From: Mesorhizobium australicum WSM2073 | GTDB taxonomy: Bacteria > Pseudomonadota > Alphaproteobacteria > Rhizobiales > Rhizobiaceae | DNA: 64,000 nt | Reading direction: 5' to 3' | Assembly (NCBI RefSeq): GCF_000230995.2 | Contig: NC_019973.1 | Span: 3,734,001 to 3,798,000, forward strand | Shown here: in pieces, positions 21,129 to 61,458 of the stretch | Numbering within the stretch: the stretch's first letter is position 1 | How the letters are laid out: the number at the start of each line of letters is the position of its first letter | The notes under the pieces: model-generated | The model's input: only the letters and a program-made list of their open reading frames with translations | Database searches by the model: none | Told to the model about the DNA's origin: nothing | Translations under genes and position numbers: made by a program

Positions 21129-21254
21129 GGGGCTTTTCCTTCTTTGCGGGCGGAATCTGTCCGCATTCGTTTGGGCGCTGTCTAATCGGTTTTTCCCGGC
21201 AGGAAAAGGCCTGTTAAGCCGGGCGCAGATGGGTAGGATGCCCAGGAAACGCAA

Positions 21255-21285
21255 GAAGGGCCGCCGGTCGACCCGGTGGCCCTTC
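21255..21285 (-). terminator. Hairpin after the slipin gene
   Basis: Arms GAAGGGCC (21255-21262) and GGCCCTTC (21278-21285) are perfect complements enclosing a GGTCGACC palindrome. It lies 18 bases past the slipin stop and upstream of acpXL. On the minus strand it is followed by TTGCGTTT, a weak T run. Confidence 0.65.
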
Positions 21286-21303
21286 CGTTGACGCTACGTA
21301 AGC

Positions 21304-22446
21304 TCAGCTGTCGCGGAGCTTGACCAGGTCGTTCAGCAGCCCGCCCGTTCCGTTGTGGACGGTCAGCCGCTCGACCTTGCCGGCGATGGTTTCCAGAGCC
21401 TCGAGCTCCTTCAGCCGCAGCATCACCGGGTTCTCCGCCATCACCTTGGCCGTGTTGAGAAGGGAACGCGTGGCGTTCGTCTCCTCGCGGCGGCGGATGA
21501 CATTGGCCTCGGCCTGCTTTTCGGCCGAAACCACCTGGTTGAGGATCTCACGCATCTCACCCGGCAGGATGACATCCTTGAGCGCGATATCGCTGACCTC
21601 GACCCCGATCTCGGCCATGTCGGCACGGACCTTGGCCGCCGCTTCCTCGTCGACCGTCACCTTCTTTTCGAGGATCTGGTCGAGCGTGAGCGCGCCCAGC
21701 GTCTTGCGGAACGCGTACTGCAGGGCGCGGTAGAGGGCCTCGGAGAAGTCCTTCACCGCGCTCACCGCCTTGACCGGATCGATGACCCGGTATTCGGCCG
21801 CGATATTGACGCGGATCGTGACGCGGTCCCTGGTCAGCACTTCCTGCCCGGCGACATCGAGCGACTGGCGCTTGAGGTCGACGACCTTGATCTGCACCAT
21901 CCGTCCGACGTTCCAGAAGCCGTGCACGCCAGCGGCAAGCGTCCGCACAAGGACACCGTCGATAAACAGCAACCCGGCCTGGCCGTCGACAACCGGGTGA
22001 ACGGACATCAATTCCGCCTTCCGGGCCTGGCCGAGCCGGCGCATGACAGCCGGATCGATGGCAAGATCGGCCGAGGTGTCGATCACCGTCACCTTCCACG
22101 GTCCGGCATCGGTCCACAGTACCAGCTTACGGTCGGGGGCCTGCACGGAATGCAGGTTGCCGTCACGCTCGATGACGGCAACTTCCGTGCGCCCCGTGCG
22201 CACGACGGTGAAATGACGCGCGGCCACGTCCGGGAGCTTGTCGAACAACGCCTTCTCGTACGCCGAAACGAATTCCGGGCTCTTCAGATCGTGCCGGGAC
22301 ACCTCAAGGCTCTGGTTCCGGTTGGCGAGCCAGTGCTCACCCGGCAGCAGGACAGCCTTGATCTCTCCCTTGTAGAGAGTGAGGGCACGTTCGTTTTCCC
22401 TAACGAGGACGCGCTCGCGCCCAAGAACTGTATCGAGAATAGTCAT
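21304..22446 (-). CDS. Slipin (SPFH/stomatin-like protein)
   Basis: A 380-residue slipin of the SPFH (stomatin, prohibitin, flotillin, HflK/C) superfamily. Unusually it starts with a soluble stretch (MTILDTVLGRERVLVRENERALTLYKGE) with no clear N-terminal membrane helix. The SPFH domain spans roughly residues 165-300, with LKDVILPGEMREILNQVV marking its end. An Ala/Glu/Arg-rich helix (VSAEKQAEANVIRRREETNATR) then gives oligomerisation. ATG 22446 has AGGAG 7 bases upstream. Related soluble slipins occur in bacterial RNA-repair operons with rtcB and tRNA-like RNAs. Two tRNA-like sequences lie upstream on the same strand, which makes that link plausible. Confidence 0.88.
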   Translation of the reverse strand: MTILDTVLGRERVLVRENERALTLYKGEIKAVLLPGEHWLANRNQSLEVSRHDLKSPEFVSAYEKALFDKLPDVAARHFTVVRTGRTEVAVIERDGNLHSVQAPDRKLVLWTDAGPWKVTVIDTSADLAIDPAVMRRLGQARKAELMSVHPVVDGQAGLLFIDGVLVRTLAAGVHGFWNVGRMVQIKVVDLKRQSLDVAGQEVLTRDRVTIRVNIAAEYRVIDPVKAVSAVKDFSEALYRALQYAFRKTLGALTLDQILEKKVTVDEEAAAKVRADMAEIGVEVSDIALKDVILPGEMREILNQVVSAEKQAEANVIRRREETNATRSLLNTAKVMAENPVMLRLKELEALETIAGKVERLTVHNGTGGLLNDLVKLRDS

Positions 22447-22545
22447 TGTCTTACTCCTGTCGGGCATGGCCCCATGCGAGGCGTCACGTCATGCGTCGAT
22501 CTTCCCTTCGTTTCTCGTTTCACTTCCAATTCCGGACACGAATGA

Positions 22546-22759
22546 TCCGGGGACTGGTGGCATCGATGCGCGGCGGGCCTGCGGGAGCGGATCACGGGGC
22601 AGCGAAGCGGGCGCCGGAGGCGAGCCTCCCTTGCCGGCGACACTGCGCCTTGACCATCACCGCGAGCCTGGCCGCGAGCCGATGGCATCGGACCTTTCGA
22701 TACGTCCTGGCCCGAAGGCCTCGGCCGTCCGTCACGTCTTCAGCATTCCAGTCCCCGGA
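22546..22759 (-). other. Structured leader between tRNA-like pair and slipin
   Basis: The 354 bases from 22447 to 22800 contain no gene I can support. They hold a perfect 12-bp inverted repeat, TCCGGGGACTGG (22546-22557) and CCAGTCCCCGGA (22748-22759), which could close a loop of about 190 bases in RNA. Inside on the minus strand are a GGAGGC-TC-GCCTCC hairpin and a direct repeat of GGCTCGCGG. It could be a long 5' leader of slipin or a separate small RNA. Structure is inferred from pairing only. Confidence 0.4.
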
Positions 22760-22800
22760 CCGTTTCAGATAACACCTGGCAGGGTGCTGGCTTATCGAGC

Positions 22801-22872
22801 CAATGGAGAAGGAATCGAACCTTCGACAATCAGATTATGAGTCTGATGCTCTACCAACTGAGCTATCCGTGG
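22801..22872 (-). tRNA. tRNA-like sequence, anticodon CAT
   Basis: On the minus strand the D stem GCTC/GAGC, the anticodon arm TCAGA-CTCATAA-TCTGA (anticodon CAT) and the T arm GAAGG-TTCGATT-CCTTC are all well formed. The acceptor stem CCACGGA/TCCATTG has two mismatches, and no CCA is encoded (next bases G-CTC). It would be scored as a Met/Ile2-type tRNA, but the weak acceptor suggests a tRNA-like RNA or decoy rather than a translating tRNA. The sequence GTCGAAG at 22827-22821 resembles the Ro-binding motif of Y RNAs, which may be chance. Confidence 0.6.
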
Positions 22873-22943
22873 TGCAGACGACGGGACTCGAACCCACAAC
22901 CTCCGGATTATGTCCGGCGCTCTCCCAGTTGAGCTACATCCGC
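22870..22943 (-). tRNA. tRNA-like sequence with shortened anticodon loop
   Basis: On the minus strand the acceptor GCGGATG/CGTCTGC pairs with two G-T wobbles, followed by ACCA, so CCA is encoded. D stem GCTC/GAGC and T arm GTGGG-TTCGAGT-CCCGT are sound. The anticodon arm is CCGGA-CATAA-TCCGG: a perfect 5-bp stem with only a 5-base loop, as if two bases had been lost from a CTCATAA loop. Its CCA is also the first three bases of the next tRNA-like sequence. It is either a pseudo-tRNA or a specialised tRNA-like RNA. Confidence 0.55.
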
Positions 22944-23054
22944 GATCCCAATCCCCAAAGCGGCGCCGTATACAGGGCGGCAAAGCCGTCTGCACGGGCG
23001 GAGACGAAAGCTCCAACCGTTGTGCTCGCTTCGGTTTTCGTGACCGGGAGCGCG

Positions 23055-23083
23055 CCTATAGCCCCTGCGACGGGTTGTCGCAA
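23055..23083 (-). promoter_or_regulatory. Sigma-70 type promoter for the tRNA-like pair
   Basis: On the minus strand TTGCGA (23083-23078) and TATAGG (23060-23055) are separated by exactly 17 bases. This places a start site near 23048, about 105 bases ahead of the first tRNA-like sequence. It could drive both tRNA-like RNAs and the slipin gene as one unit. I found no sigma-54 element of the kind that RtcR uses. Confidence 0.5.
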
Positions 23084-23172
23084 GCGACATTGTCGTGCCG
23101 AATTCGCGGCTTCTTTCGGCGGTGGCATTTCGGCAACACTCATTGCCGCGCCCGCGTTCGGGAGCAGTTGTC

Positions 23173-23721
23173 TCAGAAGGTGACGCGGCCGAGTACGCGC
23201 AAGCCGTCGCCTTGCGGCTCGACCACCACTGCTTCGCCTTCGCGCGGCGACACGCCGGTCAGCGCCACGATGTTTTCGAGATGGGTGACCAGGACCAGAT
23301 TGTCGGAGCCGGAATAGGCGCGGATTTCCTTCATGATGGCGGCGATCTGCGCTGCTTTCTGCGCATCGTCACCCTTCAGGAGATCGAGCGGTGCGAACAG
23401 CTCCGGCTCGGCCTCGAAGGCGGTGCGCGCGGTGTCGAGGCAGCGGCAATAGCGGCTGGACAAAATGCGCTCGATGGGAGCCGCGCGGGCGGCAAACAGG
23501 GCGCCGATCTTGCTTGCCTGCTGCTTGCCGCGCGCCGACAGATTGACCTGGGTGGCGCAATTGCCGATGTCGAAATTGGCCGGGTCGGTGGTGCCGGTGA
23601 CCATAGCGTGGCGCAGCAGCACGACATGGCCGCCATCCCGCAGCAGCGCCCAGCCGGCGTCCGTCGCGTGCGCGGCGGCGGGGACGACAAGCAGGAACAA
23701 CGCCAAGGCTAACCGGATCAT
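23173..23721 (-). CDS. Exported histidine phosphatase family protein
   Basis: A 182-residue protein of the histidine phosphatase (phosphoglycerate-mutase-like) superfamily with a Sec signal peptide (MIRLALALFLLVVPAAAHA, residues 1-19). The phosphate pocket is visible: R37-H38 in VVLLRHAMVTG, the second Arg in LSSRYCRCLDTA, and the second His in LVLVTHLENIVALTG. The start at 23721 has AAGGG 5 bases upstream; upstream frame extension is not signal-like. Substrate is unknown; periplasmic members act on sugar phosphates or phytate-like compounds. Confidence 0.87.
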   Translation of the reverse strand: MIRLALALFLLVVPAAAHATDAGWALLRDGGHVVLLRHAMVTGTTDPANFDIGNCATQVNLSARGKQQASKIGALFAARAAPIERILSSRYCRCLDTARTAFEAEPELFAPLDLLKGDDAQKAAQIAAIMKEIRAYSGSDNLVLVTHLENIVALTGVSPREGEAVVVEPQGDGLRVLGRVTF

Positions 23722-61203: not shown

Positions 61204-61228
61204 CGCAAGATCGATTACGGACGGGGGA

Positions 61229-61250
61229 ACGGGCTGTCACGGCCCGTTTT
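61229..61250 (+). terminator. Rho-independent terminator after coxM
   Basis: A 6-bp stem ACGGGC (61229-61234)/GCCCGT (61242-61247) with a 7-base loop runs into TTTT (61247-61250). It lies 26 bases after the coxM stop and closes the operon. The next 208 bases to the acyltransferase gene show no feature I can support. Confidence 0.75.
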
Positions 61251-61458
61251 CATTCCCGGCGACCGTAGGCCTAGTTCCCGTCGGCCACGCCCCCATCCTT
61301 GCTTGAAGCAATTCCGGCCCATGCTGCGGGGGACATGCATCGGCGGCAATCTCGCACTTGCACAAACTTATATTGCGCTGCAGTATAGATCAGGGCGGGA
61401 ATGCGAGCCGGGTTCGGGAATAGCCGTGCCTTTCGCATTACAATGCGAAGGGATCGGC

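Follow-up and report, generated by a model that had tools for sequence, protein, structure and literature searches.

A tandem pair of tRNA-like RNAs upstream of a soluble slipin gene in Mesorhizobium australicum: a possible RtcB-free branch of an RNA-repair module

We analysed a stretch of 64,000 nucleotides (nt) from Mesorhizobium australicum WSM2073 (contig NC_019973.1, positions 3,734,001 to 3,798,000; hereafter the window), in which two abutting tRNA-like sequences lie directly ahead of a gene for a slipin of the SPFH/Band-7 family. Read along the minus strand from 23083 to 21304, the locus consists of a promoter-like element, a structured RNA segment that we call domain A, tRNA-like 1, tRNA-like 2, two hairpins, a second structured segment (domain B) and the slipin gene. 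We favour, tentatively and with somewhat less than even confidence, the reading that this locus is a stand-alone, RtcB-free branch of a slipin and tRNA-like RNA module otherwise found within RtcR/RtcB repair operons, and that its tRNA mimics act as bait or as a holding site.

Conservation of the pair and kinship with RtcB loci

A search for relatives of the slipin, taking one genome per species, returned 186, the best 80 of which were kept as loci. They span Rhizobium, Shinella, Labrys, Roseibium and Novosphingobium, with slipin identity of 68% at the lowest; outside Alphaproteobacteria, a relative was also listed for Subdoligranulum. ARAGORN at standard settings reported one or two tRNA-like sequences upstream of the slipin in 78/80 loci. 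The two loci without a call were L080 and L051, and the latter, whose record begins 358 nt upstream, was counted as having no upstream DNA and stands outside all counts of the pair. The alignment of the pair comprises the window and the 79 loci having upstream DNA (80 rows). Read by eye, it allowed both copies to be traced in every one of the 79 relatives. The sequence-only reading of this DNA had named absence of the pair from most relatives as the outcome that would speak against its proposal; the survey gave the opposite result. In a more distant set of 19 loci, 18 of them with upstream DNA, a tRNA-like sequence was found in 13/18 at standard ARAGORN settings; the remaining five showed one only once the settings were relaxed or a motif was searched for, the motif search having no false-positive control. 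Five loci added later all carried one at relaxed settings (5/5).

Some loci depart from the usual arrangement. One (L154) carries another eight tRNA genes (Phe, Gly, Asp, Phe, Arg, Pro, His and Leu) lying codirectionally 6 to 1.1 kb upstream of the slipin; an RtcB-linked locus (L165) has three tandem tRNA-like sequences rather than two, 393 to 179 nt upstream of the slipin; and in L172 copy 2 seemingly lacks a D-arm, as read by eye. Carriage by phages or plasmids was considered and rejected: no phage record matched, the 75 stretches of viral contigs that matched two peptide patterns included none encoding a slipin relative, and the nine matching records labelled as plasmids were mostly over a megabase, one of them chromosome-sized.

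To place the locus relative to RNA repair, we surveyed 398 genomes sampled from the whole phylum. Of these, 23 matched the slipin profile and 84 had RtcB. Fourteen of the 23 slipin genomes lie outside Alphaproteobacteria, and all 14 carry RtcB within 4 kb of the slipin; the other nine are alphaproteobacterial, and none of these has RtcB (0/9). A second draw of 376 Alphaproteobacteria genomes added five with a slipin, of which two had RtcB on other contigs and three had none, so that over both draws RtcB was linked to the slipin in 0/14 alphaproteobacterial genomes and present elsewhere in 2/14. At the one locus annotated for these genes (L161), RtcR is divergent upstream of the slipin, with RtcB, RlaP and RtcA downstream. 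A profile that includes the window slipin (A3) finds both alphaproteobacterial and rtc-locus slipins at an E-value of 2.6e-80 or better. Before the RNA, several RtcR-type loci show a TGGCAC...GC element, which we take to resemble the sigma-54 consensus, and the aligned alphaproteobacterial loci show TTG...TATA or similar in its place (both read by eye).

The single-contig genome of 6.2 Mb gave no match to RtcB, in a search that was positive for 9/14 control genomes, and none to RtcR, for which the E. coli control was positive; RlaP was not found in it either. The absence of rtcB and rtcR that had been noted for the window therefore extends to the whole genome, and to RlaP, the genome-wide search having left RtcA aside. 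An rtcB gene elsewhere in this genome is thereby rejected. Two reading frames matched the RNA-ligase family PF09414, at 35 bits (599 amino acids) and, below the cut-off, at 25 bits (849 amino acids); from their length we suspect that both are DNA ligases. Because RtcB is linked to the slipin outside the class and is missing from the genome studied here, kinship supports a reduced RNA-damage system. The sequence-only reading had proposed one that was either reduced or split. The first half stands, given the linkage of 0/14 in Alphaproteobacteria against 14/14 outside, and the second falls with the lack of rtcB in the genome. Its interpretation as a whole is partly supported, and the link that it drew from slipin and tRNA-like RNA to RtcB repair holds by descent.

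In the E. coli and Citrobacter records, a nucleotidyltransferase gene adjoins the slipin, as does rtcR in Citrobacter. At least 80% of an E. coli slipin-unit query was matched in 1,621/5,426 E. coli genomes. In one E. coli locus (L176) the unit adjoins a DUF3811 gene, and in one record (H10) an IS1 transposase is listed under the match.

Association of SPFH proteins with tRNA-like RNA is not new as such. Burroughs and Aravind (Nucleic Acids Research, 2016) reportedly described RNA-repair modules of the SPFH/Band-7 type that include a 'novel tRNA-like molecule'. The locus studied here resembles that module in its homologous slipin, in the tRNA-like RNA upstream and in having relatives in rtc loci, and differs from it in that the genome lacks RtcB, RtcR and RlaP; here we describe the tandem arrangement, both RNA domains and the variation of the loop. 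The RtcB-free branch and the variable loops appear to be new: among the matches listed in the full-text literature, which covers few subscription journals, none described anticodon-loop variation, domains A or B, or an RtcB-free branch.

Three other systems come close. PaFlo8 of P. aeruginosa (PA14_60630) is, by the description in a 2026 paper, an SPFH gene that likewise sits in an rtc locus with rtcA, rtcB and rtcR; the likeness goes by that description, and the main text of the paper mentions no tRNA ('trna' 0 occurrences; PMC13086221). In the rsr-yrlBA-rtcBA operons of the Ro/Rsr-YrlA system, the RNA-repair operon likewise supplies an RNA with a tRNA-like domain, and Salmonella YrlA is proposed to act as a tRNA-like competitive inhibitor of an anticodon nuclease (PMC7790460). 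Unlike there, the gene at our locus is a slipin (no search was made for a Ro protein). Rfam reports a weak YrlA match in the window at 22845-22904 (minus strand) with 26 bits against a cut-off of 69, running from the T-arm of copy 1 into the D-arm of copy 2. A tandem pair of this sort could have given rise, at its junction, to the permuted tRNA-like RNAs of the YrlA type. The third is the eukaryotic vault, formed by the major vault protein (MVP) with vault RNA, which we count among the closest known systems without claiming membership in it.

The two tRNA-like RNAs

The two tRNA-like sequences announced by the sequence-only reading were recovered by ARAGORN as abutting minus-strand genes, and both score above the Rfam tRNA cut-off of 29 bits (Table 1). 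In the ARAGORN call they share three letters, the CCA that closes copy 1 also forming the 5' end of copy 2. Weak Rfam matches labelled 'Plastid', on the opposite strand and below cut-off, were ignored. Copy 1 has a full acceptor stem and an encoded CCA, and its anticodon stem CCGGA/TCCGG closes a loop of only 5 nt (CATAA). Copy 2 has a 7-nt loop, CTCATAA, with the anticodon CAT on the stem TCAGA/TCTGA; its acceptor stem is imperfect and the CCA is missing. Measured against what a translating tRNA requires, copy 1 thus lacks the 7-nt anticodon loop and copy 2 lacks an encoded 3' CCA on a complete acceptor stem.

These defects recur in the relatives. In copy 1, the CCA is encoded in 65/80 rows and the anticodon loop measures 4-6 nt in 71/80, a few of these lengths coming from imperfect alignment slices. 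In copy 2, the loop has 7 nt in 78/80 rows, the CCA is present in 1/80 and the inner acceptor helix comprises 3 base pairs in 59/80. As far as sequence can tell, the two RNAs are disabled in opposite and complementary ways, copy 1 by its short loop and copy 2 by the absent encoded CCA, and the mimics appear unfit for translation. Labels of the type that ARAGORN assigns (tRNA-Met, tRNA-Tyr, tRNA-Stop) misname such elements. The tRNA loci fetched from the genome, an incomplete list without Ile-GAT for example, yielded 45 further distinct tRNA sequences, including three for Met-CAT; copy 2 is therefore not needed as a methionine tRNA.

The loop of copy 2 was compared over 76 rows, excluding L073 and L078 with misaligned arms and two rows with 6-nt loops. 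It occurs in 26 distinct 7-nt versions on a stem that is TCAGA/TCTGA in 70/76 rows. Within this diversity it keeps a tRNA grammar, with T33 in 66/76 rows and a purine at position 37 in 75/76. The distance from each loop to the nearest of 43 loops of the genome's own tRNAs averaged 1.08 mismatches, compared with 1.43 for column shuffles (P 0.0004).

Structured RNA domains, the slipin and the layout of the locus

Both flanks of the pair carry structured RNA, and neither domain A nor domain B has a match in Rfam. Domain A, with 65% mean column identity over a 30-row alignment (A2), was folded by RNAalifold into a single 12-pair hairpin in which 6 pairs show compensatory changes. Further helices come from single-sequence folds of 19 sequences, most of which, though not L057, look alike by eye. 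When profiles of the two domains were run against the loci L152-L170, that of domain A reached E-values of 8.7e-5 in L153 and 0.021 in L157, and that of domain B gave nothing under 1.6; A-like motifs in further loci were read by eye.

Domain B contains the perfect 12-base-pair inverted repeat pointed out from the sequence, TCCGGGGACTGG (22759-22748) with CCAGTCCCCGGA (22557-22546), which belongs to a real helix. In 27 hand-chosen representatives, a set without L018, L031 and L059, the best 14-base-pair closing helix scored 12.6 on average, compared with a mean of 7.4 and a maximum of 10.0 in 12 base-shuffled regions. The helix arms paired at 13.81/14 with their own partners and at 11.41/14 when swapped between loci (702 swaps), a comparison in which choosing the best-pairing arms favours the own value; for eight hand-picked divergent loci the figures were 13.50 and 9.20. 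In L079 the representative test picked a weak spurious helix (6.5), and a wider search gave 15.5. In L018, L031 and L059 a different helix scored best, the expected helix of L059 having two mismatches by count. Since the arrangement is conserved and the helices covary, an origin of the locus by chance is rejected.

The slipin frame matches Band_7 with an E-value of 7.6e-30, in agreement with the initial annotation, and its description as a soluble type also holds, in that no transmembrane helix could be seen by eye in the sequence or the model. The protein comprises three beta units, an SPFH core and a long C-terminal helix. Proteins of the SPFH/slipin family are known to form rings and domes (PMC12624060). 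We do not claim vault membership: with the N-terminal part, Foldseek placed a protein kinase first (E-value 7e-4, low probability) and MVP at an E-value of 0.05, and a Pfam scan at E-values up to 10 found no vault family. In the M. ciceri WSM1271 record (L037, left out of the trees described below) the slipin frame appears broken, with 36 codons and then a stop, and in L056 it changes frame near the C-terminus; both retain the RNA pair.

The promoter-like element reads TTGCGA (23083-23078), a 17-nt spacer and TATAGG (23060-23055), exactly as had been reported. A strict sigma-70 consensus scan listed no promoter in 21200-23200, so the support for this element is its conservation, TTG being retained at that position in 21/23 aligned relatives (read by eye). 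Every feature listed by the sequence-only reading was thus recovered, and two things had escaped it: the existence of domain A, and the absence of a usual anticodon in copy 1. A pattern scan of the minus strand found no terminator-like site between the pair and the slipin. Among neighbouring reading frames of at least 90 amino acids, sorted into families common to at least 10 loci, we saw no conserved partner gene near the window slipin: these families belonged to Rhizobium- or Shinella-type loci or were the rtc genes of RtcB loci, and, apart from frames overlapping the slipin, none took in the window. Elsewhere in the window, at 61206-61458 on the plus strand, Rfam matches the Mesorhizobial small RNA MH_s15 with 140.8 bits.

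Table 1. Elements of the slipin locus, in window coordinates
Feature	Position	Strand	Evidence
Promoter-like TTGCGA-N17-TATAGG	23055..23083	-	direct reading; TTG conservation
Domain A, 106-nt structured 5' RNA	22944..23049	-	30-row alignment A2; RNAalifold
tRNA-like 1	22870..22943	-	ARAGORN; Rfam tRNA 55.3 bits
tRNA-like 2	22799..22872	-	ARAGORN; Rfam tRNA 62.6 bits
Two short hairpins 3' of tRNA-like 2 (GGC..GCC; CACC..GGTG)	22771..22803	-	alignments read by eye
Domain B, 224-nt leader RNA closed by long helix	22541..22764	-	helix search in relatives
Slipin (SPFH/Band-7), 380 amino acids	21304..22446	-	Band_7 match

What the pair may do

Under the reading that we favour, a single transcript would run from domain A through both tRNA mimics and domain B into the slipin message, and tRNA-maturation enzymes would probably cut it at the shared CCA. 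A cage of soluble slipin would then bind and gather the domain and tRNA-like RNAs, and the gathered mimics would offer bait or a holding site for tRNA-cleaving ribotoxins. Copy 2, by displaying a loop of tRNA grammar whose identity varies among species, could titrate toxins that attack anticodon loops, or help gather the damage. Bacteria that have RtcB would reseal the RNA so collected; in the RtcB-free locus studied here only the sink or shielding part would remain.

On a slipin tree of 56 Mesorhizobium-clade rows, the loop positions of copy 2 averaged 11.0 changes, compared with 4.4 at 101 four-fold sites of the slipin gene, and its anticodon and T stems had 0 changes. As a control for recombination we repeated the count with a tree of 55 rows built from the RNA on either side of the pair. 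Loop positions 32-38 changed 13, 7, 20, 16, 8, 6 and 5 times, respectively, and the 418 flanking columns changed 2.05 times on average and 13 times at most. Positions 33, 37 and 38 are thus held back, which fits a tRNA-type loop of changeable identity. Whether decoy or part of a scaffold, the loop varies in a way that sets it apart from a working tRNA gene.

Several observations weigh against a decoy function. The four-fold sites of the slipin reach 18 changes at the 99th percentile and 22 at the maximum. Seven free positions in the D-loop, variable loop and T-loop of the pair changed 11-18 times on the flanking-RNA tree; the anticodon of copy 2 therefore changes at roughly the pace of the least constrained sites of the RNA, and relaxed constraint may account for part of its variability. 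The pattern of rates is by itself no proof of positive selection. Exact matches between the loops of copy 2 and those of the genome's own tRNAs (5/26) did not exceed column shuffles (mean 2.98, P 0.15), and the short loop of copy 1 makes it a poor substrate mimic. Outside Alphaproteobacteria, four Burkholderia records carry a short loop, of GAAA type or otherwise, where copy 2 would have its anticodon, and the E. coli and Citrobacter records show by eye an RNA like domain A and a T-arm only, with no tRNA reported in either by ARAGORN. With tetraloop-like loops in Burkholderia and only a T-arm in the enteric records, a decoy anticodon is not a universal function of these RNAs.

The strongest competing reading takes the tRNA fold for an assembly handle and no more: its elbow, together with domains A and B, would serve to assemble the slipin, and the idle anticodon loop would drift, with host modification and folding keeping it vaguely tRNA-like. 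We regard this as a serious but rather doubtful alternative. The conserved parts of the locus are indeed domains A and B and the tRNA-like arms, the Burkholderia and enteric records dispense with the anticodon loop or its whole arm, and unconstrained positions in other parts of the pair change as quickly as the anticodon does. Against it, copy 2 maintains its 7-nt length, T33 and purine 37 and stays nearer to real tRNA loops than shuffled columns do. Moreover, positions 33, 37 and 38 changed only 5-7 times where 34 and 35 changed 16-20 times, which indicates that the loop of copy 2 is not simply free. A bolder version of the bait reading seems to us unlikely. In it, each alphaproteobacterial lineage would maintain its share of a diversifying set of anticodon-loop decoys, displaying two translation-dead tRNA mimics whose loop identity turns over in an arms race against tRNA-cleaving toxins. 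A soluble, vault-like cage of slipin would carry them along with the two RNA domains, as a bacterial RNA-protein sponge in which shielding has replaced repair.

Alternatively, the tRNA-like RNAs could act in cis as sensors in the 5' leader, such that a cut by a tRNA nuclease would separate domain A from the slipin message and alter slipin output. The RNAs lie codirectional with and directly ahead of the slipin, with a conserved structured leader, as such a tripwire would need. The activator RtcR is missing from the genome, however, and the interval between pair and slipin has no terminator-like site, and we consider this mechanism improbable. That the two copies are ordinary tRNA genes or decaying tRNA pseudogenes, upstream of a slipin by chance, is hardly credible: Rfam and ARAGORN do class both as tRNA, but the genome has three further Met-CAT tRNA sequences, the 7-nt loop is missing from copy 1 and the CCA from copy 2, the anticodon differs between near relatives while the stems stay unchanged, and homologous slipins of different genera and classes are again preceded by tRNA-like sequences.

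The locus would be informative whichever of the two leading readings applies. If the RNAs are a scaffold, it would provide a clean RtcB-free setting for working out what use soluble SPFH proteins make of RNA, a matter that, to our knowledge, the rtc operons leave open. If the RNAs are bait, they would constitute a heritable, fast-changing decoy against anticodon nucleases, and with it a layer of defence that works without a repair enzyme.

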